In this document: positions 40,996-54,434 of the stretch, one piece after another
Numbering within the stretch: the first letter of the stretch is position 1
How the letters are laid out: the number at the start of each line of letters is the position of its first letter
Origin: Lachnospiraceae bacterium
GTDB taxonomy: Bacteria; Bacillota; Clostridia; Lachnospirales; Lachnospiraceae
Length of the DNA stretch: 64,000 nt
NCBI GenBank assembly: GCA_017474455.1
Contig: JAFVHP010000012.1
Coordinates: forward strand, 1 to 64,000
Direction of reading: 5' to 3'
The notes under the pieces: model-generated
Database searches by the model: none
What the model saw: the letters and a program-made list of their open reading frames with translations, nothing else
Told to the model about the DNA's origin: nothing
Position numbers and translations under genes: made by a program

Positions 40996-41126
40996 GTCTA
41001 TCTCCTTGTTCTTTCCGTTATCAGGCAGCATCCGAAATGCGCCATTCTCTTTTTTGAAATTGCTATAATATAATAACGCAAGGATTTTGAGGAATCAATC
41101 ATATTCAGAAAGATACGGTGGATATT

Positions 41127-41780
41127 ATGAAGATATACGATATCAGCAAAGAACTGTTCTCCGCCTCTGTCTATCCCGGAGACCCCGTCCCTTCGAAGCA
41201 AGAGGTGATGGGTTTTGACAAGGAAGTCCCCGACCACTGCCAGGTCACGATGCTGTCCCTCGGCAGCCATTCCGGCACGCACATGGACGCGCCGCGCCAT
41301 TTCGTACCGGGCGGGAAGGACATGGAAGAGCTTGACATCAGGAAATGCCTGGGTCCCTGTATCGTAGTCAGCGCCGGCGGCGATATCACGGCGGATATGG
41401 CGCGCGGGTGGATAAAAGAATGGGAGAGTTCTGACGGAGCATCCCCGGCTGCTTCGGGAGGCAGCCCGGAAGACGGAGAGAAGGCTTCTGCCGACGGGCT
41501 GCGCCTGCTCATCCGCGGGGACATCACGATCACGGAAGAGGCCGCACAGGTATTCGCGGACAGTTCCCTGTCCTGCCTGGGTGTCGAAGGCATGACCGTC
41601 GGAACGCAGGAGACCGGGGTCAGGATCCATCAGATCCTCCTTGGCGCGGAAGTCGTCATCATCGAAAGCCTGGTGCTCCGGGATGTGCCGGACGGCCGTT
41701 ACTTCCTGCACGCCCTGCCGCTGAAGATGCGCGGCCTGGACGGCTCGCCTGTCAGGGCGGTGCTGACGGCAGAGGAGTGA
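41127..41780 (+). CDS. Cyclase-family protein (kynurenine formamidase-like hydrolase)
   Basis: A 217-residue metal-dependent hydrolase of the cyclase/KynB family with the signature HSGTHMDAPRHF near residue 52-63, whose His and Asp bind metal. YPGDPVPS at the N terminus is typical. Residues about 100-122 form a Ser/Gly/Ala/Glu-rich insertion (DGASPAASGGSPEDGEKA) not found in usual members. The ATG at 41127 follows GGTGG. The substrate is uncertain: formylkynurenine, other N-formyl amides or cyclic esters. Its stop codon lies in an imperfect tandem duplication. Confidence 0.83.
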   Translation: MKIYDISKELFSASVYPGDPVPSKQEVMGFDKEVPDHCQVTMLSLGSHSGTHMDAPRHFVPGGKDMEELDIRKCLGPCIVVSAGGDITADMARGWIKEWESSDGASPAASGGSPEDGEKASADGLRLLIRGDITITEEAAQVFADSSLSCLGVEGMTVGTQETGVRIHQILLGAEVVIIESLVLRDVPDGRYFLHALPLKMRGLDGSPVRAVLTAEE

Positions 41781-41869: not shown

Positions 41870-42183
41870 GGCGGATACAAACCCGCGAGACCCAAATTGC
41901 AGCCGCTGCAGGATCTCATTTTGAACCTGCCAGCATCGTAAATCTAATATACAAGCGGTTACAGAGGCCCAAATAAATGCTTTTTGTCCGCTGCAAAATG
42001 GCAGATTTTTGTTCATTATATTTCCGATAAGGATACAGCCCGTCAAAAATGGATTCCTGAAGCGGACACAATCAAGTCACACTGAATTTATAACCGCTTA
42101 TCAGTCCATCTTAGGCCTGACAGACAGCAACAGATATGCGATATCAGCGGTTTCAATAATTATTTCCTGTTATTTGATCCGCT
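41870..42183. repeat. Four-module inverted half-site element, copy 1
   Basis: Four pairs of (A/G)GCGG facing CCGCT start at 41870/41903, 41954/41988, 42061/42094 and 42146/42179, so internal start-to-start spacing is 33, 34, 33 and 33. The linkers between modules are 46, 68 and 47 bases. GGCGGATACAAA in module 1 is the fullest half-site, and TCAAAAATGGATTC precedes module 3. The same geometry occurs at 52374-52686. The stretch is AT-rich compared with neighbouring genes. Apart from this element, the 41781-42304 gap holds only the duplicated cyclase end, a doubled CCGGGCATAA and a stem-loop. No coding sequence was found. Confidence 0.85.
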
Positions 42184-42229
42184 GACAGATCAAACAGCAT
42201 TGGAACCGGGCATAACCGGGCATAACAGA

Positions 42230-42268
42230 GACCGGCTGCGCCCGCCCTCAAGGCGGATGCAGCCGGTC
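42230..42268. terminator. Strong stem-loop downstream of the FakA-C-like gene
   Basis: GACCGGCTGC pairs with GCAGCCGGTC, and inside it CCGCC pairs with GGCGG around CTCAA. There is no T-run on the minus strand and only TTATTT on the plus strand, so termination strength is uncertain. Confidence 0.55.
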
Positions 42269-42304
42269 CTTATTTCCTTCATTCAGTTCCGCGGGATCTT
42301 TTCC

Positions 42305-42556
42305 TTATCCCTGCAGTCCCCTGCTCTGGCGGTCCATGTCTTCCACGACGATGTCGTAGATCTCTCCCAGGGTCGCGCAATATTTCAGCACATCCCAGGG
42401 CTCGTTGGTGTGGAAGTGGATCTTGATCAGATCCTCGTCGCCGACAGCCAGAAGGCTGTCGCCCTTGAAATTCTCCGTAATGTAATCGTTGATCTCGTCC
42501 TCATCCAGATCGTGGCCTTCGATCAGAAGCTGTGTATCATAACGAAATTCGAGCAT
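42305..42556 (-). CDS. Stand-alone FakA C-terminal / DAK-associated domain protein
   Basis: An 83-residue protein resembling only the C-terminal piece of FakA-type fatty acid kinases: FRYDTQLLIEG, then GDSLLAVGDEDLIKIHFHTNEP and GEIYDIVVEDM. The ATP-binding DAK2 domain is absent. AAAGGGG lies before the ATG, so this looks like a genuine small gene rather than a remnant. Such free-standing domains occur in Clostridia, with unknown function. It follows galM on the same strand by about 100 bases. Confidence 0.7.
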   Translation of the reverse strand: MLEFRYDTQLLIEGHDLDEDEINDYITENFKGDSLLAVGDEDLIKIHFHTNEPWDVLKYCATLGEIYDIVVEDMDRQSRGLQG

Positions 42557-42613
42557 GATCTTTTCCCCTTTATGAATCCTTTATGAATCTGCCGTTTATT
42601 CCTCTTTAATCTC

Positions 42614-42661
42614 GCAGTTCACTTTGCAAGTCGCTTTGCAGTTCACTTTACATATCACTTT
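42614..42661. repeat. 12-bp tandem array (four units) overlapping the galM stop codon
   Basis: Units GCAGTTCACTTT, GCAAGTCGCTTT, GCAGTTCACTTT and ACATATCACTTT. On the minus strand each carries AAAGTGA, AAAGCGA or AAAGTGA in the galM frame, so the end of galM is repeated and in-frame stop codons recur. Confidence 0.88.
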
Positions 42662-43734
42662 ACGACAGAGTAATAATAAACGGTTTTCTCATTATATTCC
42701 ATACCCGGCCGCAGTACGGGATCCGGGAACGGGACATCACGGCCCTCAGCGGCAGCCTGTTCCGCCACCTTTTCATAACTATGGATGGCATCCGGGACGT
42801 TCTGTGTCTCCAGGCAGAAACCGCTGCGCCAGGTGTAATCCGTGCCGCCCTTTCCGATGTCGTGGTTCAGGAAGTTGCCGGAATAAAGCTGCATGGCGGC
42901 CTGGGTCGTATATACGTCCACAGCGATCCCGCTGGCGGGAGAGTATGCCCTGGCTGCGTGCCGCAGCTGTCCTGCCGCGCCTCTGATCATCCAGTTCCTG
43001 TCATAGCCGCCCGCGAAGGTGAGCTGGTCAAAATCTTCATCGATATGCAGTCCGATCGGGGTGCTCTTCCTTAAGTCCATAGGGGTGCCTTCGACCGGTA
43101 CGATACTGCCGTCCGGTATCTGGCCGGAATCGGCAGGGGTGTACTCATCCGCCTCGATCAGGATCTCCTGGTCTAAGATCGAGCCGGCGTCGTGCCCGTT
43201 CAGGTTGTAATAAGCGTGGTTCGTGAGGTTGCAGAGGGTAGGCGCGTCCGTCACCGCGCTGTATTCGATGACAAGGGAAGCTCCGCTGTCACCGGCATCC
43301 GGAGCGCCCGCGTTCCCCGGCACAAGGCTGTATTTTACCTTCACGTCCAGGTTCCCGGGATAGCCTTCGTCGCCGTCCGGGCTGTGCAGCGAAAGGACGA
43401 TATGGGAATCGTCCGCTTCAACAACTTCCCACAGCTTTTTGTCAAAGCCGCAGATGCCGCCGTGAAGGTGGTTTTCGCCGTCGTTCGCGGCCAGCGTATA
43501 CTTCTTCCCGTCGATCTCAAACTCCGCGCCGCCGATCCGGTTGCAGAATCTGCCGGCGGTCGCGCCCATGAACTTGTCGTGCGCGGCATAGCCGTCAGCC
43601 GTTTCGAAACCCAGCACCACGTCCTTTCCGGTGCCGTCCCTGTCCGGGACGATAAGTGACTGGAGCGCCGCGCCGTAGGTGATGATCCCGGCGGTGACGC
43701 TGCCGCATTTTAACTGATAGATCTCTGTTTTCAT
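42655..43734 (-). CDS. galM: Aldose 1-epimerase (mutarotase)
   Basis: A 359-residue galactose mutarotase. It has the catalytic His in LTNHAYYNLNG, the general-base Glu in GFCLETQNVPD and the substrate segment GRFCNRIGGAEF. It interconverts alpha and beta anomers of galactose or glucose. A short Ala/Gly/Asp insertion (GNAGAPDAGDSGAS) interrupts a surface loop near residue 140. It follows galK on the same strand by 191 bases, forming a small galactose-use unit. Its stop codon lies in the last 12-bp repeat of a tandem array. Confidence 0.94.
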   Translation of the reverse strand: MKTEIYQLKCGSVTAGIITYGAALQSLIVPDRDGTGKDVVLGFETADGYAAHDKFMGATAGRFCNRIGGAEFEIDGKKYTLAANDGENHLHGGICGFDKKLWEVVEADDSHIVLSLHSPDGDEGYPGNLDVKVKYSLVPGNAGAPDAGDSGASLVIEYSAVTDAPTLCNLTNHAYYNLNGHDAGSILDQEILIEADEYTPADSGQIPDGSIVPVEGTPMDLRKSTPIGLHIDEDFDQLTFAGGYDRNWMIRGAAGQLRHAARAYSPASGIAVDVYTTQAAMQLYSGNFLNHDIGKGGTDYTWRSGFCLETQNVPDAIHSYEKVAEQAAAEGRDVPFPDPVLRPGMEYNEKTVYYYSVVK

Positions 43735-43867
43735 AGTCTCAGCTCCTGTTTTCTTAGTGCTTCCAGTGTCTGCAGTTCACGCAGCGATTCTGTCATGCCT
43801 TTTATGCTGCCGATACCCGCCTGCCGGGATCCGCCTGCCGGTACCGCGGCCGGCTGTCCCTTACAAT

Positions 43868-43932
43868 TGTTCTTTACAGTTGTTCTTTACAGTCGTTCTT
43901 TACAGTCGTTCTTCACAGTCGTTCTTCACAGC
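43868..43932. repeat. 13-bp tandem array (five units) overlapping the galK stop codon
   Basis: Five units of TGTTCTTTACAGT or CGTTCTTCACAGT. The final unit contains the TCA complement of the galK TGA stop (43926-43928). A period of 13 shifts the frame at each unit. Confidence 0.9.
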
Positions 43933-45209
43933 GCAAGCTGTGCCGCGCCGACTTCGCGGATGCCTGTCAGATAGATATTGTCCCTGCCGAAATACGGCGT
44001 CATATAATTAATGTAATCATCCGTCAGTTCCCTGGGGACGATGCTCATGATAACGCCTGCGAAGCCCCCGCCGTGGACCCTGCAGACACCGCGCGGAGCA
44101 TCCGCGTCGGCCGCTGTCTGTGCCGCGCAGCCGTGCTCCGCAAAGAATATCTCCGTCAGCAGCAGGGCGAGCGTGATGGACTGCTCTTTTTCGTCACAGT
44201 AGAGGTTCTGCAGCCACCTGGCGGAGGATAGGCCGCTCTCGTTGATCAGGTCCAGCATCTTTTTCTTGTTGCCGTCCAGAAGCGCCTGCCTTGCCTCTTT
44301 GACGCGGCTGCATTCGGTAAAGAAATGCAGGGCGCGCAGAATTGCGCGGTCGTTGCCGAGCTTTTCCCTGATCCTGACCAGGTTCTCCAGCAGATTTTCC
44401 TGCGTGGTCTCCCAGAGGTTCTTCACACCAAGCTCCGCTGCCACGGCGTGCATCTCGTCCGGAATGGAAGAGTAGACCGCGCTCAGGTTGGCATGGCCCT
44501 TGCCGGTGTTGACGATCACGAGACTGCAGTCCAGCGCGTCAAAGGTAAAATCCAGCTTCTCATACTTCACGTCGTCGTGGGAAAAATCGAGAAAGATCGT
44601 CCCGCCGGCGGCACAGGCCATCTGGTCCATCAGTCCCGAACCTTTGTCCCAGAAATGGTTTTCCGCGTACTGGCCGATCCTTGCATAATCCGGGAATGTC
44701 ATCCGGCCGTCATTGAACAGGTCGTTTATGATCTGAGCGATAAGCATCTCAAAGGACGCCGAAGAACTGACGCCTGCCGACGGAATGACCTTTGTGGAGA
44801 CACAGGCGCTGAACCCGCCGACGGCAAAGCCGGCCTTCTTCGCAGCTTCCAGCATACCTGCTACAAGGGAGAGGGTCCCTTTGCACTTCGGCACCCTGTC
44901 CAGCCGGTCAAGATCGATGCGGACCGGGTCTCTGTATCCTTCGCTGATGATCGTGACGATATTGTCCCCGGTGGGCGCCGCGGCTGCGACCGTATCCATC
45001 GTGATGCTGGCCGCCAGGATATATCCGCCGTTATGGTCCACATGGTTGCCGATGATCTCGGTCCGCCCCGGTGACGTGAAGAACTTTATCCCGCCTTCCC
45101 CGGCCGCATCCGCGCCGAAGTTCTCTTTAAACCTGTCCTCCAGAACTGCCAGTCTTTTTCTTGCGGACTCCGCGTCCGCCCCGTAGACTTTTTCAAGATC
45201 CAGGATCAT
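43926..45209 (-). CDS. galK: Galactokinase
   Basis: A 427-residue GHMP kinase: the galactose-binding signature PGRTEIIGNHVDHNGG near residue 45, the ATP loop PSAGVSSSASFE near 140, and the C-terminal motif GGGFAGV. It phosphorylates galactose at C1 in the Leloir route. AAAGGGGG lies before the ATG at 45209; the open frame continues upstream without a ribosome site. galT and galE are not in the window. Its stop lies in a 13-bp tandem array. Divergent from the radical SAM gene. Confidence 0.93.
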   Translation of the reverse strand: MILDLEKVYGADAESARKRLAVLEDRFKENFGADAAGEGGIKFFTSPGRTEIIGNHVDHNGGYILAASITMDTVAAAAPTGDNIVTIISEGYRDPVRIDLDRLDRVPKCKGTLSLVAGMLEAAKKAGFAVGGFSACVSTKVIPSAGVSSSASFEMLIAQIINDLFNDGRMTFPDYARIGQYAENHFWDKGSGLMDQMACAAGGTIFLDFSHDDVKYEKLDFTFDALDCSLVIVNTGKGHANLSAVYSSIPDEMHAVAAELGVKNLWETTQENLLENLVRIREKLGNDRAILRALHFFTECSRVKEARQALLDGNKKKMLDLINESGLSSARWLQNLYCDEKEQSITLALLLTEIFFAEHGCAAQTAADADAPRGVCRVHGGGFAGVIMSIVPRELTDDYINYMTPYFGRDNIYLTGIREVGAAQLAL

Positions 45210-45245
45210 TTTTTCCCCCTTTACACACATCCGGATTTTTGTCCG

Positions 45246-45275
45246 ATGACAATTGATTTCCCTGTTGTCTATAAT
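45246..45275 (+). promoter_or_regulatory. Probable promoter of the radical SAM gene
   Basis: ATGACA (45246-45251), an 18-bp spacer and a perfect TATAAT (45270-45275), about 65 bases before the ATG at 45340. Confidence 0.55.
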
Positions 45276-45339
45276 ACGGGATACATGATATTTGGTCAAA
45301 AGTATAACCATTTTTAAGGTGATCGGAGGAGTAGTTAAT

Positions 45340-46887
45340 ATGGCTGTTTCATTAAAAGGTCTCGGACACGCTGCGGAGAGACAGGCTGTTTCCGTTATCG
45401 CTGACGGGCTTATAAAGAGTCTGCGCAGCAAGGAAGACAAAACGGAAGTTTATGAAAAGATTATCGATCTCGCGGCGCATTTCTGGGGCAAAAACGCGAA
45501 CGCGGAGACACTGGACAAGGTCCGTGCCGTAGTCGCCGACCCGGAGAACCGCTGGGTGAAATTCATCGGCAAAGTCCTTGACGAGACAGATCCGCAGTAC
45601 GCGAAAAAGATGCTCCTCAACCTCGGTTATGAAGCTTTCTTCCGCGGCACCAAGACGATCCGCGAGAACAGGGAAAAGTACGGCTGCAACATTCCCTGGC
45701 TCATCCTTTTTGATCCCACCAACGCCTGCAACATGCACTGCGTGGGCTGCTGGTCCGGAACATACGGCAGCAAGACCAGCCTTACATTCGAAGAGATGGA
45801 CAAGATCGTTACCGAAGGCAAGGCGCTGGGCGTTTATCTCTACATGATGACCGGCGGCGAGCCCATGGTCCGCAAGAAAGATATCCTGAAACTCTGTGAA
45901 AAGCACAACGACTGCTTCTTCGCTGCCTATACCAATTCCACGCTGATCGACGACCAGCTCTGCCAGGACGTTGTCCGCCTCGGCAACCTGACCTTCATGC
46001 TCTCCATCGAAGGCACGCCCGACACCAATGACGCCCGCCGCGGCGACGGCCACTACCAGGCTGTTATGAAAGCCATGGACCTGCTGAAGAAATACGGCAT
46101 CGTATACGGCACGTCCATCTGCTATACAAGGGACAACATCGAAGCGGTCACGGACGAGAAGTTCCTGCGCTTCATCGCGGAAAAGGGCGCCCGCTTCGGC
46201 TTCTACTTCCACTTTATGCCCGTCGGCAAGAACTCCGTTCCGGAGCTGATGCCCACAGTCGAACAGCGCAGGAAGATGATCGAAAAGATCCGCTGGGTGC
46301 GTTCTCCCGAATGCGATATCGAATTCTATCCGATGGACTTCCAGAACGACGGCGAATACGTCGGCGGCTGCATTGCCGGAGGCAGGAACTATTTCCACAT
46401 CAACTCCAACGGCGACGCAGAGCCCTGCGTATTCATCCACTTCTCGGATTCGAACATCAAGACCCATTCGATCCTCGAGATGCTGCAGAGCCCGCTGTTC
46501 ATGGCTTATCATGAAGGCCAGCCCTTCAACCGCAACCACCTGCGCCCCTGCCCGATGCTTGAGAATCCCCACCTCCTGCGTGAGATGGTCCAGGCGACCG
46601 GCGCACACCAGACCAACTATGAATCATCCGAAACGGTCTTCGAACTCACCGACAAGTGCAACGACTACGCCGCCGAGTGGGGCCCCGTCGCGGATGAGAT
46701 CTGGGCGCACCAGACGCATAAGCAGCAGAAGTATGAAAACTACACGCCCGAAAAGCGCGAAGACCATACGCTCGCCGCTTTCGACAGCAAGGATGCCGAT
46801 ACCCTGAAGAAGGAACTGGAAGACAAGATCGGCCGCGAGATCGAGATCGATCCCGAAGTTGCGGAAAAAGAACTGAAGAGGGCCTGA
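45340..46887 (+). CDS. Radical SAM protein with C-terminal Cys-bearing extension
   Basis: A 515-residue radical SAM enzyme. A helical N-terminal domain (1-115) precedes the cluster motif CNMHCVGC near 135, the SAM-binding TGGEP near 175 and a barrel. The later segment contains CIAGGRNYFHINSNGDAEPC, a SPASM/twitch-like auxiliary-cluster pattern, and RPCPMLENP. The GGAGGAG site before 45340 fixes the start. Proteins with this layout are frequent in Clostridia, but no reaction is assigned to them here. No precursor peptide gene was seen next to it, so peptide modification is not supported. Confidence 0.83.
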   Translation: MAVSLKGLGHAAERQAVSVIADGLIKSLRSKEDKTEVYEKIIDLAAHFWGKNANAETLDKVRAVVADPENRWVKFIGKVLDETDPQYAKKMLLNLGYEAFFRGTKTIRENREKYGCNIPWLILFDPTNACNMHCVGCWSGTYGSKTSLTFEEMDKIVTEGKALGVYLYMMTGGEPMVRKKDILKLCEKHNDCFFAAYTNSTLIDDQLCQDVVRLGNLTFMLSIEGTPDTNDARRGDGHYQAVMKAMDLLKKYGIVYGTSICYTRDNIEAVTDEKFLRFIAEKGARFGFYFHFMPVGKNSVPELMPTVEQRRKMIEKIRWVRSPECDIEFYPMDFQNDGEYVGGCIAGGRNYFHINSNGDAEPCVFIHFSDSNIKTHSILEMLQSPLFMAYHEGQPFNRNHLRPCPMLENPHLLREMVQATGAHQTNYESSETVFELTDKCNDYAAEWGPVADEIWAHQTHKQQKYENYTPEKREDHTLAAFDSKDADTLKKELEDKIGREIEIDPEVAEKELKRA

Positions 46888-46920
46888 TCCCGCTTCATAA
46901 AATGAACGGACATCTGCTAG

Positions 46921-46948
46921 GGCTTCCCGGAAACGGGAAGCCTTTTTT
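46921..46948 (+). terminator. Rho-independent terminator after the radical SAM gene
   Basis: A 9-bp stem, GGCTTCCCG with CGGGAAGCC around a GAAA tetraloop, is followed by six T residues. It is the first item in the 46888-47214 gap, followed by a 26-bp repeat array; the rest of the gap shows nothing recognisable. Confidence 0.96.
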
Positions 46949-46979
46949 GCCCCCGCAGAATCGGTTCCGGATCGCTCTC

Positions 46980-47058
46980 CGCAGCACCGGCTTTCAGATT
47001 TTCCTCCGCGGCACCAGTATCAGATTTTCCTTCGCGGCACCAGTATCAGATTTTCCAT
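46980..47058. repeat. 26/27-bp tandem repeat, three units
   Basis: The units start at 46980, 47007 and 47033 and share the core CAGATTTTCC and CGCGGCACCAG (first unit CGCAGCACCGG). Units 2 and 3 differ at only about two positions. Confidence 0.9.
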
Positions 47059-47214
47059 GCCGGCCTGACAGAAAGTGATAGAATCAGATCAGTGAAAGAT
47101 CAAAAACAGATCGCCGCGGAAAATATATGACACCATCTCCGGGCTGGACCAAACTGCCGGCGAACATAGTCTTTATTTGTAGGAGCAATAGACCCTGCAA
47201 CGGATGGATCATAT

Positions 47215-48711
47215 ATGAAAGACGGATCGAAAGAAATGCAGAACGAAGAAAAAGAAATTAAAGATATAACGGAAACAGGGCGGGATGCAGGAAAAGCATT
47301 ACAAGAAGAAAAAGCCCTGGATGAAGAAAAAGCATTGAATACGGAAGAAGCCGGCAGCGGGAAGAAGAAAAAAAAGCGCCGGATCGGCCCGGCCATCTGG
47401 GTGCTTCTGGCGGCCCTTATGGTCGTATTCATCTTCTCGACTTATCACTTTGTCAGTGAATTCATGGCTTATAAAAAAGCCAGGGATGAATACAAAGGCC
47501 TCTCTTCCTATATAAGCATCGCCCAGGGGGCAGGAACGGACGCCGCAGCAGCTGGCGGCGCGGATAAAGACGCGACCGGGGGACCGGCCGCGGACGGCAC
47601 TGCCGGCGGATCCTCTGAAGATGGCCTGCTGCCGCAGGACGACCAGGGCAATACACTGACCGAAAGCAGCATACCCGGGATATTCCGGGCCGGCACGCTT
47701 CTCGGCAAATATGAAATGATCGCTTCCGAATCGATGGACGATCCCTATGAGGATGATGATCTGACCGGCGCCGCTTCCTCCGGAGGCAGCACAGGCAACA
47801 GGCCTGCGGGCCGTTTTGACGAAAAAGAACATGACCAGGCCGGCGCGGACGGTCCTGCGCAGATCGCGCAGGCACAGCCGGCAGGAGAAGACGGCTCCGG
47901 GGAAAACGCTGAAGAAAGCAGCGCTGCAGGCTCAGGCCGGGATCTGGCGGACGGCGCTACCGTGATCTCTTCCGCGGCCGCGGGAGCGGAAGACAGCCTA
48001 AAAAACGGATCAACCGGAGACAGCGGCAGGAAAGTCTACATTTCCTATCCGAGGCTCGATATCGACCATAAACATCTGAAGGAAGTGAATGAAGAATACG
48101 TCGGCGTCCTGTTCATCCCCTGCCTGGACCTTGTCTATCCCGTCGCGCAGGGCGAAGACAACAAAGTTTACCTGCGCAAAACATTTGAAGGCAATTACAA
48201 CGCGGCAGGCTGCATCTTTATGGATGCCTTCGCGCACCGGAACATGTCCGATACCAATACTTTCATCCTCGGCCACAACATGCGCGACCTTTCCATGTTC
48301 GGCTCGCTGAAAACACTGGAAACGGATCCGGAACTTTGCCCGCAGCATCCTTACTTTTATCTGTATACGCCCGGAAAGGTCTATAAATACGCGATATTTG
48401 CCTACTGCACGGTGCCCTCGAAGGACGAACTCTACAGCTTTTACGACGCGAGATTCGACCCGGAGGCCTATGACGCGTTCATAGAAAAATCGACCGCGCG
48501 CTCATTGTACACGCCGGAAGAGGGCGTCATCGATTTTGGCGAACGGCCGACATTATGTACTCTTTCCACCTGCTACGGCACAGGCCACATCAACAATTTT
48601 ATCGTGCAAGGCGCGCTGCTCGGCGCGGCCAGGACTTCGACCGTGACGAACGCCGCAGATGCGGATGCGGACACGGAATCCGGGGAGCCGGAAGCCGACG
48701 GGCAGCCCTGA
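47215..48711 (+). CDS. Class B sortase-like membrane protein with long disordered linker
   Basis: A 498-residue protein. A charged cytoplasmic tail (1-57) and one membrane span (about 58-80) precede a Gly/Ala/Asp-rich linker (about 105-265) and a sortase B domain (about 270-470). Catalytic residues visible are His in FILGHNMRD and Cys453 in LCTLSTC. The usual Arg before the last strand appears to be Asn461 (HINNFIV). The domain should face the cell surface and join proteins to the wall or each other. The ribosome site (GGATGG) is weak. No sorting-signal substrate is in the window. Confidence 0.86.
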   Translation: MKDGSKEMQNEEKEIKDITETGRDAGKALQEEKALDEEKALNTEEAGSGKKKKKRRIGPAIWVLLAALMVVFIFSTYHFVSEFMAYKKARDEYKGLSSYISIAQGAGTDAAAAGGADKDATGGPAADGTAGGSSEDGLLPQDDQGNTLTESSIPGIFRAGTLLGKYEMIASESMDDPYEDDDLTGAASSGGSTGNRPAGRFDEKEHDQAGADGPAQIAQAQPAGEDGSGENAEESSAAGSGRDLADGATVISSAAAGAEDSLKNGSTGDSGRKVYISYPRLDIDHKHLKEVNEEYVGVLFIPCLDLVYPVAQGEDNKVYLRKTFEGNYNAAGCIFMDAFAHRNMSDTNTFILGHNMRDLSMFGSLKTLETDPELCPQHPYFYLYTPGKVYKYAIFAYCTVPSKDELYSFYDARFDPEAYDAFIEKSTARSLYTPEEGVIDFGERPTLCTLSTCYGTGHINNFIVQGALLGAARTSTVTNAADADADTESGEPEADGQP

Positions 48712-48730
48712 TAAATAGCGGAAATGCAAA

Positions 48731-48767
48731 ACACCGCCGGCAGATGCCTGCGGTGTCTTATTCTTTT
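48731..48767 (+). terminator. Terminator between convergent sortase and glmM-like genes
   Basis: ACACCGC and GCGGTGT close a stem with an inner GGC/GCC pairing, followed by CTTATTCTTTT on the plus strand. Confidence 0.7.
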
Positions 48768-48786
48768 CACAATGCTGCTTCCGGGA

Positions 48787-50175
48787 TCAGGATCCCTGCA
48801 GCACCTCCTCCAGCTTATCGGCCAGTTCCACGGCCAGCGCTTCGTCAGAGGACTCGACGAGGATCCGGATGACAGGCTCCGTACCGGAAGGCCTGACCAG
48901 GACCCTGCCGTTCCCCGACAGCAAAGCCTTTGCTTCTTCCAATGCAGTCTGCAGCTTTGCGGACTGCATTGCTTTTTTCTTGTCCGCGACCCTGACGCTC
49001 CGCTGGATCTCCGGATAAAGGGTCAGTTCTTCCGCCAGCTCGGACAGCTTCTTCTTTCTGGCGATCATGACCTGCATCACCTTCAGGGAAGTCATGACGC
49101 CGTCGCCGGTCGTGCCGTATTTGGAAAAAATGATATGGCCGGTCTGCTCGCCGCCGATATGGCAGTCGTGTTCACGCATGTACTCGTAAACGAAGCGGTC
49201 ACCGACCTCTGTCTGCGCGTAATCGATGCCGGCTTCGTCAAAAGCCTTGAACAGGCCGTAGTTGGACTGCTGCGTCATGACGACCGTATTGTTCGTCAGC
49301 TTGCCGCGCTCCTTCATGTAAAGTCCGTACATATACAGGATATGGTCGCCTGTAACGACGTTGCCTTTTTCATCGACCGCAAGGCACCTGTCCGCGTCGC
49401 CGTCATAGGCAAACCCGATATCCAGGTGATTTTCCACGACGTGCTTCTGAAGCGCCTCGATATGGGTCGACCCGACGCCCAGGTTGATATTGAAGCCGTT
49501 GGGCTCCACGCCGATGCAGTAAGTGTCGGCGCCGAGGGCGGAAAAGACGGCTTTCGCGATGGTCCAGGATCCGCCGTTCGCGCAGTCCAGTCCAACCTTA
49601 ATGCCTCTGAAATCATAGATCCCAAGCGAGATCAGGTAGGCGATGTAGCGGTTGCGGCCCGCGATATAGTCCACAGTCTGGCCGATATCGTTGCCGGTGG
49701 CGTAGGGCAGTTCCTCATAATCCTGCCCGAAAACGGAAAGGCTTCCGTCCAGATAATCCTCGATCAGGTCGATGACCGTCTCGTCCATCTTTTCGCCGGA
49801 ACCGTTCACGAGCTTGATCCCGTTGTCGTAAAACGCGTTATGGCTGGCGGTGATCATGACGCCGCAGTCGAAGTGGTCGACCCTGGTAATATAGGAGATA
49901 GAAGGCGTGGTCGTGACGTGCAGCAGATAGGCGTCCGCCCCGGATGCCACGAGCCCGCCGACCAGCGAGTACTCGAACATGTAGCTGGACCGCCGCGTGT
50001 CCTTGCCGATCACGATCCGCGGGGCTTCCGGCTGCTTTCCTTCTTCCGCCGCTTTTCTTTTTTTCAGCTCGCCGTAATACCAGCCCAGGAATCTGCCAAT
50101 GCGGAAAGCGTGGTCCGCCCGCAATACGACATTGGATTCACCCCTGAAACCGTCTGTACCGAAATATCTGCCCAC
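48787..50175 (-). CDS. glmM: Phosphoglucosamine mutase-like alpha-D-phosphohexomutase
   Basis: A 462-residue phosphohexomutase: the N-terminal RYFGTDGFRGESN, phosphoserine loop VMITASHNAFYDNGIK, metal loop AYDGDADRCLAVD, sugar loop GGEQTGHI and C-terminal phosphate loop RPSGTEPVIRI. These fit GlmM, which converts glucosamine-6-phosphate to glucosamine-1-phosphate for peptidoglycan. The serine loop reads TASHN rather than the more common SASHN of GlmM, so phosphomannomutase-type specificity is possible. Single gene, convergent with the sortase. Confidence 0.87.
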   Translation of the reverse strand: MGRYFGTDGFRGESNVVLRADHAFRIGRFLGWYYGELKKRKAAEEGKQPEAPRIVIGKDTRRSSYMFEYSLVGGLVASGADAYLLHVTTTPSISYITRVDHFDCGVMITASHNAFYDNGIKLVNGSGEKMDETVIDLIEDYLDGSLSVFGQDYEELPYATGNDIGQTVDYIAGRNRYIAYLISLGIYDFRGIKVGLDCANGGSWTIAKAVFSALGADTYCIGVEPNGFNINLGVGSTHIEALQKHVVENHLDIGFAYDGDADRCLAVDEKGNVVTGDHILYMYGLYMKERGKLTNNTVVMTQQSNYGLFKAFDEAGIDYAQTEVGDRFVYEYMREHDCHIGGEQTGHIIFSKYGTTGDGVMTSLKVMQVMIARKKKLSELAEELTLYPEIQRSVRVADKKKAMQSAKLQTALEEAKALLSGNGRVLVRPSGTEPVIRILVESSDEALAVELADKLEEVLQGS

Positions 50176-50238
50176 CTGTCATCCTCCTGCTTAAACTGGT
50201 GTCTGCTATTGTCTGTTCTGATGTCAGTACTGCCTGCT

Positions 50239-50289
50239 GCCTGACATATCTGGCGCCTGTGCCGCCTGATATATCTGATGCCTGCTGCC
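50239..50289. repeat. 25/26-bp imperfect tandem repeat
   Basis: Two units starting GCCTGACATATCTGG (50239) and GCCTGATATATCTGA (50264) lie between the glmM-like start and the aldo/keto reductase stop, within a run of GCCTG pentamers. Confidence 0.65.
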
Positions 50290-50326
50290 TGCTGACCGTG
50301 TTACTGCTGCCGCTATATCCCGCGGA

Positions 50327-51241
50327 TCACGGCAGTTTCTTTCCCGCCGACAGGTACAGTTCGTACCATTCTTCGCGGGTAAGCGTAATGTCGCAGGCCT
50401 TCGCGATATCGGCGACCCTGCCCTTGTTGGTCGTGCCGACGATCGTCTGGATGCCGGCCGGATGGCGCAGGATCCAGGCAACGGCAATGGCGTTCTGGCT
50501 GCAGCCGTACTTTTCGGCAAGCCTGTCGAGGACGGCGTTCAGCTCGGGATACTTTTCGCTCCCGATGAAGGTCCCTTCGAACATTCCGTACTGGAAAGGC
50601 GACCACGCCTGCAGGCGGATATCGTTCAGCCTCGCGTATTCAATAAAGTTGCCGTCCCTGACGCAGGCCGCGTCATTCGCGATATTTACATTGATGCCCG
50701 CGTCGATCGTAGGGCAGTGTGCGATCGAAAACTGCACCTGGTCGATCAGGATGCGGCCACCGACATATTTATTGATCAGTTCGATCTGCATCGGATTGTG
50801 ATTGCTCACGCCGAAATAGCGGACCTTGCCGGCCGCGGCCAGCTTATCGAACGCTGAAGCGATCTCTTCGGGCTCCATCAGCGGGTCCGGCCTGTGCAGC
50901 AACAGGATATCCAGATGATCCGTATTCAGGTTCTGCAGGCTCTTGTCCACCTGCTGCAGGATGTAACTCTCGGACGCGTCGTACAGGCCCCTGCGGATGC
51001 AGCACTTGGACTGCAGGACGATCTTATCCCTGTAGGACGCGGGTACAGCCCTTCCGAACATCTGCTCGCACCTGCCGCCGCCGTAAATATCCGCATGGTC
51101 AAAGAAATTGATCCCGTTCTCAAGCGCCGTATCCACCAGCTCCAGCAGGGCCTTTTCATCCGGAAGGCCGACGAGCCGCATGCAGCCGATACCGACCGCG
51201 GAGATCTTCATATCTGTATTTTTCAAAGATAAGTTTTTCAT
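50327..51241 (-). CDS. Aldo/keto reductase
   Basis: A 304-residue aldo/keto reductase of the YdhF/AKR11-12 kind: N-terminal AVGIGCMRLVG, catalytic Asp-Tyr in FDHADIYGGG, Lys in VLQSKC, His in LLLHRPDP, and NADPH contacts in VGTTNKGR. No ferredoxin tail is present, unlike the enzyme at 37086. TAGGAGG precedes the ATG at 51241. Substrate unknown. It is followed by a 150-bp gap with CT-rich repeats before glmM. Confidence 0.9.
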   Translation of the reverse strand: MKNLSLKNTDMKISAVGIGCMRLVGLPDEKALLELVDTALENGINFFDHADIYGGGRCEQMFGRAVPASYRDKIVLQSKCCIRRGLYDASESYILQQVDKSLQNLNTDHLDILLLHRPDPLMEPEEIASAFDKLAAAGKVRYFGVSNHNPMQIELINKYVGGRILIDQVQFSIAHCPTIDAGINVNIANDAACVRDGNFIEYARLNDIRLQAWSPFQYGMFEGTFIGSEKYPELNAVLDRLAEKYGCSQNAIAVAWILRHPAGIQTIVGTTNKGRVADIAKACDITLTREEWYELYLSAGKKLP

Positions 51242-51470
51242 GATTTTGCCTCCTACAGAAATGATGTCATTTGATGAACAGATTATACCATGAGGCAGTA
51301 TGGAGGCGGGAGAAGGCCAGATCAGAATGAAAACGGATTGCATACCGGGGATGTCCGGTGTATCATTTGGCACATCGCCGGTATCGTTATCCGGCAGCAA
51401 TTCTTCTTTGCACGTCTTTACTGACTTCACAGATCTTCTTTTCAATTGTCCTATCAGGGAGGTTCTATTC

Positions 51471-52319
51471 ATGAAAAATCATCGTTCAAACTATTTCAAT
51501 CTTCACATTTCCGATATACCCGGACCTGTTCTTGCTCCCATGCTGGAGAGAAAACAGTATCTGGAGACTCTGCTGCTCCGGATCGACCAGACACTATCTC
51601 TGATCGATGCTCCGCAGGGAAAGCTCCGCATCAGCTGCAGTTACGGCCGTAAACAGTATTATCTTCGCCCTTCAGCTGATATAAGAAGTGGGAACTATAT
51701 AGGAAGCGGGGACTGCAAAACAGCGTCTGCGCTGGCGCAAAAGGACTACTGTGAAAAGACCCGCAGCGCGATCCTTACGGAACTCGATGCCCTGAACCGG
51801 TTCATTGAAAAGTATCCGTCTGTCACTGCAGAAGATGTATACGAACATCTTTCTTCTGCCCGGAGAGAACTTGTGACTCCGTATGAAGAGACATTGGAAT
51901 CATTCATCGATCGCTGGTTGAGCGAACCCTATGAACAAAAGTATATTTCAAGTGACCTGCCGGAACTGGTCAGTGATAAAGGCGACCGGGTCCGGTCAAA
52001 ATCCGAACTGATGATCGCCAATCTGCTTTATGAAAAAAAGATCCCCTACCGTTATGAATGTTCTTTGTATCTAGATGGATTCGGCCTGATCTATCCGGAC
52101 TTTACTGTACTGGATACGCGCTCAAGGAAAGAGGTCTGTTGGGAGCATTTGGGGATGATGGATGATCCAGATTATGTGAATAAGAATCTGCGAAGAGAAT
52201 CCGCCTATATTATGAATGGTTATTACCCCGGCGAACGGCTTATTCTTACATATGAAACAGAAGAACTCCCCATTAACCTTCGGCAGGTCAGGGCGATCAT
52301 ACAACATTACTTTGAATAG
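51471..52319 (+). CDS. PD-(D/E)XK nuclease-like protein
   Basis: A 282-residue protein with a helical N-terminal half and a C-terminal region carrying a restriction-endonuclease-like pattern: Glu179 in RSKSEL, Asp210 in YPDF and Glu225 in CWEHLG, spaced as in PD-(D/E)XK folds. The last element reads E-H rather than E-x-K. AGGGAGGT lies seven bases before the ATG at 51471. The gene is more AT-rich than its neighbours, suggesting transfer. It ends 55 bases before the four-module element at 52374. Nuclease activity is inferred from motif spacing only. Confidence 0.62.
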   Translation: MKNHRSNYFNLHISDIPGPVLAPMLERKQYLETLLLRIDQTLSLIDAPQGKLRISCSYGRKQYYLRPSADIRSGNYIGSGDCKTASALAQKDYCEKTRSAILTELDALNRFIEKYPSVTAEDVYEHLSSARRELVTPYEETLESFIDRWLSEPYEQKYISSDLPELVSDKGDRVRSKSELMIANLLYEKKIPYRYECSLYLDGFGLIYPDFTVLDTRSRKEVCWEHLGMMDDPDYVNKNLRRESAYIMNGYYPGERLILTYETEELPINLRQVRAIIQHYFE

Positions 52320-52373
52320 AATGCCCTGCTATGTGCCTTTCCTGCCGTTCTGGCATGTCTCCTGTCATATCTC

Positions 52374-52686
52374 GGCGGCTACAAATTCAAAATAGAACAT
52401 ATATAGCCGCTCCAAAAGTCCATTTCTAAAGCCACACCCTTGCTCTTTATTTTCAGAAGCAGCTGCACTAACTCATATCAATGATTTAGTCCGCTATATC
52501 TGCAGCAACAAGAGCTGTGATCAATAGCATTAGAAGAATATCCTCTCAAAAATGGATTCGCACAGCGGCTACAAATCAGATAATGAGCCGATGTGACCGC
52601 TCCTGCATCCTTCCATGCGTACATAAAAGGAAGTTTCCGGTGGTTCTCGGCGGTTACAAAGAAGAATTTCTACAATTTAGTCTGCC
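52374..52686. repeat. Four-module inverted half-site element, copy 2
   Basis: Half-site pairs start at 52374/52407, 52458/52491, 52564/52597 and 52649/52682, all 33 apart; the linkers are 46, 68 and 47 bases, identical to copy 1. GGCGGCTACAAA, AGCGGCTACAAA and GGCGGTTACAAA are the clearest left sites and TAGCCGCT the clearest right site; AGCAG at 52458 and CTGCC at 52682 are degenerate. TCAAAAATGGATTC again precedes module 3. The 52320-52886 gap holds this element, a GCCCCCG/CGGGGCC stem near 52708 and the promoter of the second transporter. Confidence 0.85.
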
Positions 52687-52886: not shown

Positions 52887-54434
52887 ATGAAACATATCTT
52901 TACCCGCAGCAGAGCATTTGCGGCGGCTGCCGCAGCGGTTCTGCTTCTGTCACTGTCACTTTCGGCCTGCGCCAATACAGCAGGTACGGGGGCATCCGGC
53001 AACACTGCATCCGGAAACACCGGATCAGCACAGCTGAGGGACACGTTCACCTTCGGTATCGCCACGGAAGTCTACAACCTGGATCCGTTCACATCGACAA
53101 CAGCTGACGCAAGAGCTGTCTATTTCAATATCTATGAAGGCCTGACCGAAGTCACGACGGACGGACAGTTCGTTCCGTGCCTGGCCTCCGACATTGAAAT
53201 GTCAGACGACGCGAAGACCTATACATTTACACTGCGTGACGGCGTCAAATTCCATAACGGAAACGACATGACGATGGACGATGTCCTCTGGTCCGTCCAG
53301 AACGCGATCGATACCGGTATGACCGGTTATTCCTCGATTGCTTCCTTTGAGGCTCTGTCCGATAAGGAACTGAAGATCGAACTTTCCGTTCCGGACACGG
53401 GCTTTTTAGCCTGCCTGACCTGCGCCATCGTACCCGCGGGATCGACAGATCTCGCGCTCTCACCCATAGGCACAGGCCCGTTCTATATGAGCGATTATGC
53501 CGAACAGGACCATCTGACGCTCAGCCGTTTTGATGATTACTGGGGCGAGAAAGCCAAGCTCTCCGCCGTTGAGATCCGTTTCGTCGCCAATTCGGCCGAA
53601 CTCCTTATGGCTTTCGAAGGCGGCACGATCGACGGCTTTGACTCCAGTTCGGGCGTAGCCAGCCAGCTCGATCCGGAAACGGCGACGCTCCATACTCGCA
53701 ACTCCAACTCGGTGCAGCTCCTCGCGTTGAACAACGCGCGCGCGCCTTTTGACGATATCCGCGTCAGGCAGGCTCTTTCCTATGCCGTTAACGCGGACGA
53801 GATCATTGAGACCGTAGACTACGGTTTTGGCGTGCCGGTCGGCAGCGCGCTGATCCCCGGCCTTTCCGTCTATTACAACGAAGAACTGGCCGACTATTAT
53901 CCGACCGACGCGGATAAGGCAAAGGAACTGCTGACAGAGGCCGGCGCTTCGGGCCTTGAATTCACCATCACGGTGCCTTCCAACTACCAGGTCCACGTCG
54001 ATACCGCCCAGGTGATCGTCAACGAACTGGCCGCCATCGGCGTCAACGCTAAGATCGAGCAGGTCGACTGGGCGACATGGCTGGAGTCGGTCTACAGCGG
54101 GCGCAATTATGAAGCCACCATCATCTCCGTCGACGGTTCGCTGGCTTATCCCACCGCTTTCCTTTCCCGTTATGTATCCGACGCGCACAACAACTTCGTC
54201 AATTTCAACTCGGCAGAGTACGACGACGTCTACAAAAAAGCAGTCGCGGCCACGGATGAGAATGAGAAGACCGCCCTTTTCAAAGAGGCGCAGGAAGTCC
54301 TGACAAAAGAAGCGGCCAGCGTATTTATCCAGGATATCTCCAGCATCAACGTGTACAGCAAGAGTTTCGACGGCTTCGCCGGCTACCCGCTGTACGCATA
54401 TGACTTTTCCGTCATTTACGCGACCGGCAACTGA
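52887..54434 (+). CDS. Peptide/nickel-type ABC transporter binding lipoprotein (SBP family 5)
   Basis: A 515-residue lipoprotein. The signal peptide ends in LSAC near residue 28, followed by a Gly/Ser/Thr tether. The SBP_bac_5 domain starts FTFGIATEVYNLDPF and contains LRDGVKFHNG. It binds peptides or related solutes outside the membrane for the transporter encoded downstream. GGAGG lies before the ATG. It is diverged from the 29981-31669 binding protein, so the two systems probably differ in ligands. Confidence 0.92.
   Translation: MKHIFTRSRAFAAAAAAVLLLSLSLSACANTAGTGASGNTASGNTGSAQLRDTFTFGIATEVYNLDPFTSTTADARAVYFNIYEGLTEVTTDGQFVPCLASDIEMSDDAKTYTFTLRDGVKFHNGNDMTMDDVLWSVQNAIDTGMTGYSSIASFEALSDKELKIELSVPDTGFLACLTCAIVPAGSTDLALSPIGTGPFYMSDYAEQDHLTLSRFDDYWGEKAKLSAVEIRFVANSAELLMAFEGGTIDGFDSSSGVASQLDPETATLHTRNSNSVQLLALNNARAPFDDIRVRQALSYAVNADEIIETVDYGFGVPVGSALIPGLSVYYNEELADYYPTDADKAKELLTEAGASGLEFTITVPSNYQVHVDTAQVIVNELAAIGVNAKIEQVDWATWLESVYSGRNYEATIISVDGSLAYPTAFLSRYVSDAHNNFVNFNSAEYDDVYKKAVAATDENEKTALFKEAQEVLTKEAASVFIQDISSINVYSKSFDGFAGYPLYAYDFSVIYATGN

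Follow-up and report, generated by a model that had tools for sequence, protein, structure and literature searches.

Arrays of short palindromic modules are scattered between the genes of several gut bacteria, where they look like parking rows for a putative DNA-binding protein. Two of them, the elements E1 (41870–42183) and E2 (52374–52686), lie in the window, a 64,000-nt stretch of a Lachnospiraceae genome (own genome, G000; contig C42), and belong to a dispersed array family with conserved geometry, in which half-site dialects differ between genomes in the copies read. To judge from sequence, the elements are probably arrays of palindromic binding sites for one putative dimeric DNA-binding protein; on the best reading, the arrays are dispersed and lineage-specific and would be bound along one DNA face, with specificity set in trans. 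The usual explanation for intergenic repeats in bacteria is that they are hairpins or relics of transposons. In the present arrays the conserved trait is geometry, not sequence: the half-site shifts in concert between genomes and the whole-turn spacing persists, a combination that points to genome-wide co-evolution of a protein with its sites. No description of such arrays was found in the literature available as open-access full text.

Anatomy of the module and its half-sites

Both elements comprise four palindromic modules to which no strand is assigned. In E1 these lie at 41870–41907, 41954–41992 (39 bp), 42061–42098 and 42146–42183, with starts 84, 107 and 85 bp apart; in E2, four 38-bp modules lie at 52374–52411, 52458–52495, 52564–52601 and 52649–52686, with starts 84, 106 and 85 bp apart. 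The linkers measure 46, 68 and 47 bp in both elements, and TCAAAAATGGATTC, the longest run common to E1 and E2 outside the modules, occurs on the plus strand 4 bp outside module 3 in each (42043–42056 and 52546–52559). For the element coordinates, the four modules of each element, the linkers and TCAAAAATGGATTC, re-reading of the sequence agrees with a preliminary description of the window. That description had also seen an (A/G)GCGG...CCGCT pair in every unit, which is true of six of the eight modules; module 2 of E2 has a degenerate left half-site, AGCAGCTGCAC, and begins AGCAG, and module 4 of E2 has the right half-site GGCAGACTAAA and terminates in CTGCC. Its reading of the spacing as helical holds, although the 33, 51 and 73 bp on which it was based mix inverted half-sites, and it is the 38-bp module that repeats (84/106–107/85 bp). 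The exact module pattern had five matches in the window (modules 1, 3 and 4 of E1, modules 1 and 3 of E2), compared with an average of 0.00 over 100 shuffles. With two mismatches allowed, there were eight matches, seven of them within the elements, against a shuffle mean of 2.0 and a largest value of 9. The preliminary description had further staked its reading on additional copies, and five more four-module elements were found in the own genome and one in another, RUG14268.

The module (38, sometimes 39 bp) reads RGCGG-H-Y-R-C-A-A, 6 bp, a 4-bp centre rich in W (A or T), 6 bp and the inverted half-site. The half-site is 11 bp long, with an outer RGC plus dialect and an inner Y-R-C/A-A-A. Across the 56 half-sites of the seven four-module elements of the own genome (E1–E7), positions 2 and 5 are always G, position 3 is C in 55, position 4 is G in 53 and position 10 is A in 53, while position 6 is never G and position 7 invariably C or T; the module flanks hold no more than 0.25 bits per position. 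In 43 modules from three genomes, the W fraction is 0.79–0.93 in dyad columns 18–21 versus 0.37–0.53 in columns 13–17. In B-DNA geometry, the distance from the dyad is roughly one turn for the inner A and roughly one and a half for the outer GCGG. The W-rich dyad, the inner A and the outer GCGG would then face one side through the minor, minor and major groove, respectively.

Within the own genome, left and right half-sites agree no better than under random re-pairing at positions 6, 7, 8, 9 and 11 (p = 0.48, 0.83, 0.66, 0.85 and 0.71) in the 25 of 28 E1–E7 modules that are 38 bp long, the three 39-bp modules being left out. A separate re-pairing test of all 28 modules had the same outcome, with the lowest p, 0.057, at position 1. 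Such independent variation of the two halves speaks against a stem, whether in RNA or in a cruciform. A structured RNA, which the preliminary description had kept as an option, is extremely improbable, given this lack of pairing covariation and the absence of matches to Rfam covariance models at gathering scores in the window (E1, E2) and three loci (E3–E5). In its favour, E1 and E2 folded as RNA are more stable than shuffles (z = −3.55 and −2.91); however, the two predicted folds differ from each other, and the eight single window modules fold unevenly, with z from 0.00 to −5.64.

Dialects and spacing across genomes

Arrays of the same build occur outside G000 in a congener (G022), in four further genera of this family and in RUG14268, a metagenome-assembled genome named uncultured Lachnospiraceae bacterium. 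The half-site is spelled differently in five of these six carriers (RGCAN.., RGCAG.., ACGGATAA, GTTAGGATAA, ACCCGATAA and others). A three-pentamer pattern gave 0 to 7 matches in each of 98 other genomes, against 0 to 5 for controls. Among 20 stretches from a scan of genome contigs, fitting half-sites were present only in two, both from RUG14268, which has a four-module element with steps of 84, 95 and 84 bp and a two-module element with a step of 84 bp, in nearly the dialect of G000. Further carriers came from model searches in which a match was judged real by eye from repeated, phased modules. The two-module model R1, run over 397 family genomes, listed 15 genomes besides the own, and among the eight whose loci were read only G389 was judged real. 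Its half-site is RGC(GG or AT)ATAAAA, and its arrays include a four-module element with steps of 95, 74 and 85 bp, a run of six modules spaced exactly 63 bp, another of seven spaced 62–64 bp and two pairs with a spacing of 147 bp; a module-only pattern matched 17 times in this genome, versus 0 for the control. In the G389 loci L136, L134 and L132, one half-site begins GCGG or ACGG and the other GCAT in seven of eight modules, and the remaining one combines GCGG with GCAG; the pattern looks as though two unlike half-sites were needed.

The model R2, built from G389 modules, listed 10 genomes. Nine loci of six genomes were read, G389 being already known and G243, G300 and G353 being left out; matches in G400, G410 and G333 were real, and those in G301, G379 and G151 were judged not to be. 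G400 has an RGCAGATAAA half-site with steps of 64–65 and 63 bp, and G410 has nine ACGGATNAA-type units in steps of 53–54 bp. Two dialects coexist in G333, GTTAGGATAA, spaced 85–86 or 75 bp, and ACCCGATAA, spaced 64 bp, and the combined model R3 had 37 matches there at E up to 0.5 with both strands counted, at least one of which (L186) resembles coding chance. Over 40 genomes of the window's genus, R3 listed three besides the own, of which only G022 was real on reading; its half-site is RGCANNYRCAW, in arrays of four modules at 85/86/85 bp, six at 63/85/53/64/84 bp and two at 63 bp. Single modules, pairs and tandem arrays of 5–9 units all occur. Position 4 illustrates the dialects, being G in 47 of 50 half-sites in G000 and A in all 24 in G022. 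This change is genome-wide and not confined to single modules, which is the expected trace of a protein with altered specificity.

Spacings in arrays found without an imposed spacing (53–54, 62–65, 75, 84–86, 147, 180 and 190 bp) fall near multiples of 10.5 bp. E1–E7, RUG14268 and G389 contig C13 were excluded from these module-only sets because their geometry had helped to find them. Over all arrays, about 5, 6, 7, 8, 9, 10, 14, 17 and 18 turns are in use between modules. The helical resultant R at 10.5 bp is 0.913 for 32 spacings (distinct steps per array; none of 20,000 random sets as high), 0.873 for 13 distinct lengths (1 of 20,000) and 0.957 for seven length clusters (21 of 20,000); for the six-module array of G022 alone, 78 of 20,000 random sets were as high. 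The first phase statistic used hand-entered lists (45 steps, with one value per near-identical unit and with E3 and E4 treated as one) and was repeated with more G333 arrays. The three G389 loci with two- and four-module elements also carry a second motif, GGTYNACATAA, in 10 copies, all in or beside the elements, and none was found in 38 kb of two tandem-array loci of this genome. The eight copies that precede a half-site lie 21, 32, 21, 84, 63, 43, 32 and 22 bp from it, and the motif keeps the same phase as the modules.

The independent half-sites, the co-phased spacings in several genomes and the W-rich dyad give good sequence support to the earlier proposal of a multi-site nucleoprotein element on one DNA face. 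Each dimer would sit on the same face, and neighbouring dimers would touch to form a one-sided multi-dimer complex, which a second, co-phased protein may join in one genome. The complex may anchor, loop or stiffen the chromosome locally. A trans-acting protein with drifting specificity would keep the sites in step, and the arrays would spread and grow through duplication and dispersal. It is possible, and we suggest it tentatively, that this represents a new chromosomal nucleoprotein system of Lachnospiraceae-type bacteria, in which a fast-evolving dimeric protein, joined in some genomes by a second co-phased partner, would read helix-locked palindrome arrays in a private dialect per lineage, and which would act as anchors, loop bases or barriers to replication or transcription.

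Several points weigh against an array of sites for one dimeric protein. No binding protein was found, and confirmed carriers number only five of the 397 family genomes sampled (own, G389, G400, G410 and G333), so the arrays are either rare or hidden by dialect. In 43 modules pooled from three genomes, pair counts exceed shuffles (covariation score 0.291 versus 0.209, 0 of 500), an excess that we attribute to dialect differences between genomes. The spacings of E1–E7 taken alone favour 10.8 bp. Also, the tandem units of G333 and G410, and some of those of G389, are near-identical, and their spacings are therefore not independent. The second motif was measured in the very sequences in which it had first been spotted by eye.

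Copies in the own genome and the question of mobility

The own genome (2.62 Mb, 51 contigs, 96.55% complete) has seven four-module elements, established by pattern searches and reading. Besides E1 and E2 these are E3 (C26:206848–207159), E4 (C26:218666–218977), E5 (C15:38492–38806), E6 (C15:142226–142539) and E7 (C6:25557–25860), and module starts are 84–86, 106–107 and 84–85 bp apart, except that the central step of E7 is 96 bp, about one helical turn shorter. Two further elements have two modules each, E8 (C26:48257–48475) with starts 180 bp apart and E9 (C26:56627–56855) with starts 190 bp apart. The three-pentamer pattern gave 22 matches in this genome, 20 of them inside elements, and its reversed control none; a looser pattern gave 76 versus 48 for the control. 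Paired half-sites with a free gap of 3–33 bp occur at 25 places versus 15 in the control, and 21 of the 25 are 38–39 bp long, 20 in E1–E7 and one in E8. A model search of the genome at E up to 0.3 gave no additional place and failed to recover E4 and E7, so further copies may exist.

The elements lie in near pairs: E1 and E2 10.5 kb apart, E3 and E4 about 11.8 kb start to start and inverted, E8 and E9 8.4 kb apart. Such copies, dispersed beside unrelated genes, might instead be non-autonomous elements resembling miniature inverted-repeat transposable elements (MITEs), whose phased modules would be transposase or recombinase sites that form a synaptic complex, with the enzyme copying the element in trans. 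E3 and E4 fit this, aligning without a gap over 322 bp at 86% identity (45 substitutions) in a match that stops 7 and 3 bp beyond the outer modules, as do E8 and E9, a second, diverged pair. The E5 site fits it too. The gap there between a radical SAM gene and ireB is 568 bp in G000 and no more than 134 bp in eight of the nine congener loci, out of 11, in which both flanking genes could be placed, the ninth having an open frame of about 200 codons in the gap. The shorter congener gap is consistent with an insertion of E5, but no target-site duplication was recognised in the flanks read. Moreover, the edges are unclean, an additional 56-bp stretch beside E3 and E4 also being common to both (80%). 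The outer modules are palindromic like the inner ones, so that terminal inverted repeats would look no different from the other modules. The occurrence of single modules, pairs and long tandems is unlike fixed-end MITEs, and the linkers have diverged yet half-sites and phase are kept, unlike in a dead MITE. Over the eight aligned half-site pairs of E3 and E4, substitutions fall only at positions 1, 6, 8, 9 and 10, and none at 2–5, 7 or 11. A MITE-like origin is, on this balance, unlikely.

E1 lies between convergent frames, a putative cyclase (41118–41780, plus strand) and a FakA-like middle domain (42305–42556, minus strand), and E2 is likewise intergenic, with an SBP_bac_5 gene (52887–54434, plus strand) starting 200 bp downstream. 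This transporter gene and the inverted half-sites, which are of dimer type, are what might be expected of ordinary operators of a regulon. The scanned neighbours, however, have no common theme. In G000 they include the putative cyclase, FakA-like, substrate-binding proteins, CAAX protease, LD-carboxypeptidase, radical SAM, IreB, Hsp20, aldo/keto reductase and flavodoxin-like genes, the surrounding frames being convergent, tandem and divergent alike; the genes next to G389 elements are also unrelated. A common regulon was therefore rejected, and the operator explanation is very improbable. The pair E8 and E9 (L072:10257–18855, C26) flanks a flavodoxin-like gene, a DEAD helicase, a BrxC/BrxD-type ATPase and a TerB gene, and the two elements (L072 10257–10500 and 18627–18880) share an inverted pair, CGAATAGTTGA / TCAACTATTCG, with one arm behind each module. 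A test of shared position compared 274 stop-to-stop frames, taken from 13 array loci, with the seven G000 element loci; of 15 matches, a single one lay within 1 kb of an element. This was the flavodoxin-like gene near E8; in RUG14268 its relative is separated from the array by about 5 kb.

Other candidates were also rejected. All six frames of E3 and E4 are interrupted by stops, and their differences fall 19/13/13 over the codon phases, which is not clearly 3-periodic, against a coding reading. A composite transposon bounded by E1 and E2 was rejected, as no transposase is among the Pfam-matching frames scanned between them, which are metabolic, sortase or radical SAM. One minus-strand frame between them (48787–50175) overlaps a plus-strand frame without Pfam match (48724–50244); read by eye, we take the former to be phosphohexomutase-like, and the latter is thus probably no gene. 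Pattern scans of viral contigs gave seven stretches, two without matching half-sites and five with single palindromes, and no arrays, which speaks against a phage origin, and a plasmid search with one G333 array gave no match. Short tandem repeats lie outside one end of E1 (window 42204–42226), E4, E5, E6 and E7, with periods of 10, 13, 36, 11 and 31, and in five of 18 flanks the score exceeded the 95th percentile for 150 random windows. The repeat side agrees with the GC-skew direction in four of five elements and in neither of two weak cases. This incomplete agreement leaves a fork barrier unsupported, and replication direction does not explain the side.

Comparison with known systems

Repetitive extragenic palindromic (REP) sequences and bacterial interspersed mosaic elements (BIMEs) have units similar in size to the modules. 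To our knowledge, spacing by whole helical turns is not a REP rule. The likeness otherwise lies in dispersed intergenic arrays of palindromic units, lineage-specific and of several types per genome (see also PMC12306157); the two dialects within G333 agree with this. The arrays differ from REP/BIME in their independently varying halves, W-rich dyad, whole-turn spacing and lack of a foot tag. Left/right covariation, as expected of hairpins, is absent within the own genome, the pooled excess being attributed to dialect. Neither GTAG nor CGTC, the tags that a reference title in the same article names for REP (PMC12306157), stands as a conserved tag at the palindrome foot in E1–E7, where no flank position exceeds 0.25 bits. 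That the arrays are a Bacillota counterpart of REP/BIME, with hairpins recognised by a Y1-type transposase or gyrase, is accordingly very improbable.

BOX elements of Streptococcus pneumoniae are modular intergenic repeats with a variable number of the inner unit (PMC3049150). The present arrays are likewise modular, intergenic and of varying unit number, but no boxA/boxC-like ends were found, and the order boxA-boxB(n)-boxC is absent from E1–E7, where no end modules are distinct; the units resemble protein-site palindromes in helical phase. The G389 array with a 37-bp unit and a 63-bp period resembles the repeat plus spacer of clustered regularly interspaced short palindromic repeats (CRISPR). 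Here, however, only the unit ends are conserved and the middles vary, in G000 and in aligned G389 arrays, in place of near-identical whole repeats, and no cas operon was among the scanned neighbours. In iteron, parS and multi-operator arrays, too, a single protein has repeated sites, whose phasing serves cooperative binding. The present family differs from these in its nine known dispersed places in G000, with no replication or partition gene among the scanned neighbours, and has the whole-turn spacing that marks a phased array for a multi-dimer protein.

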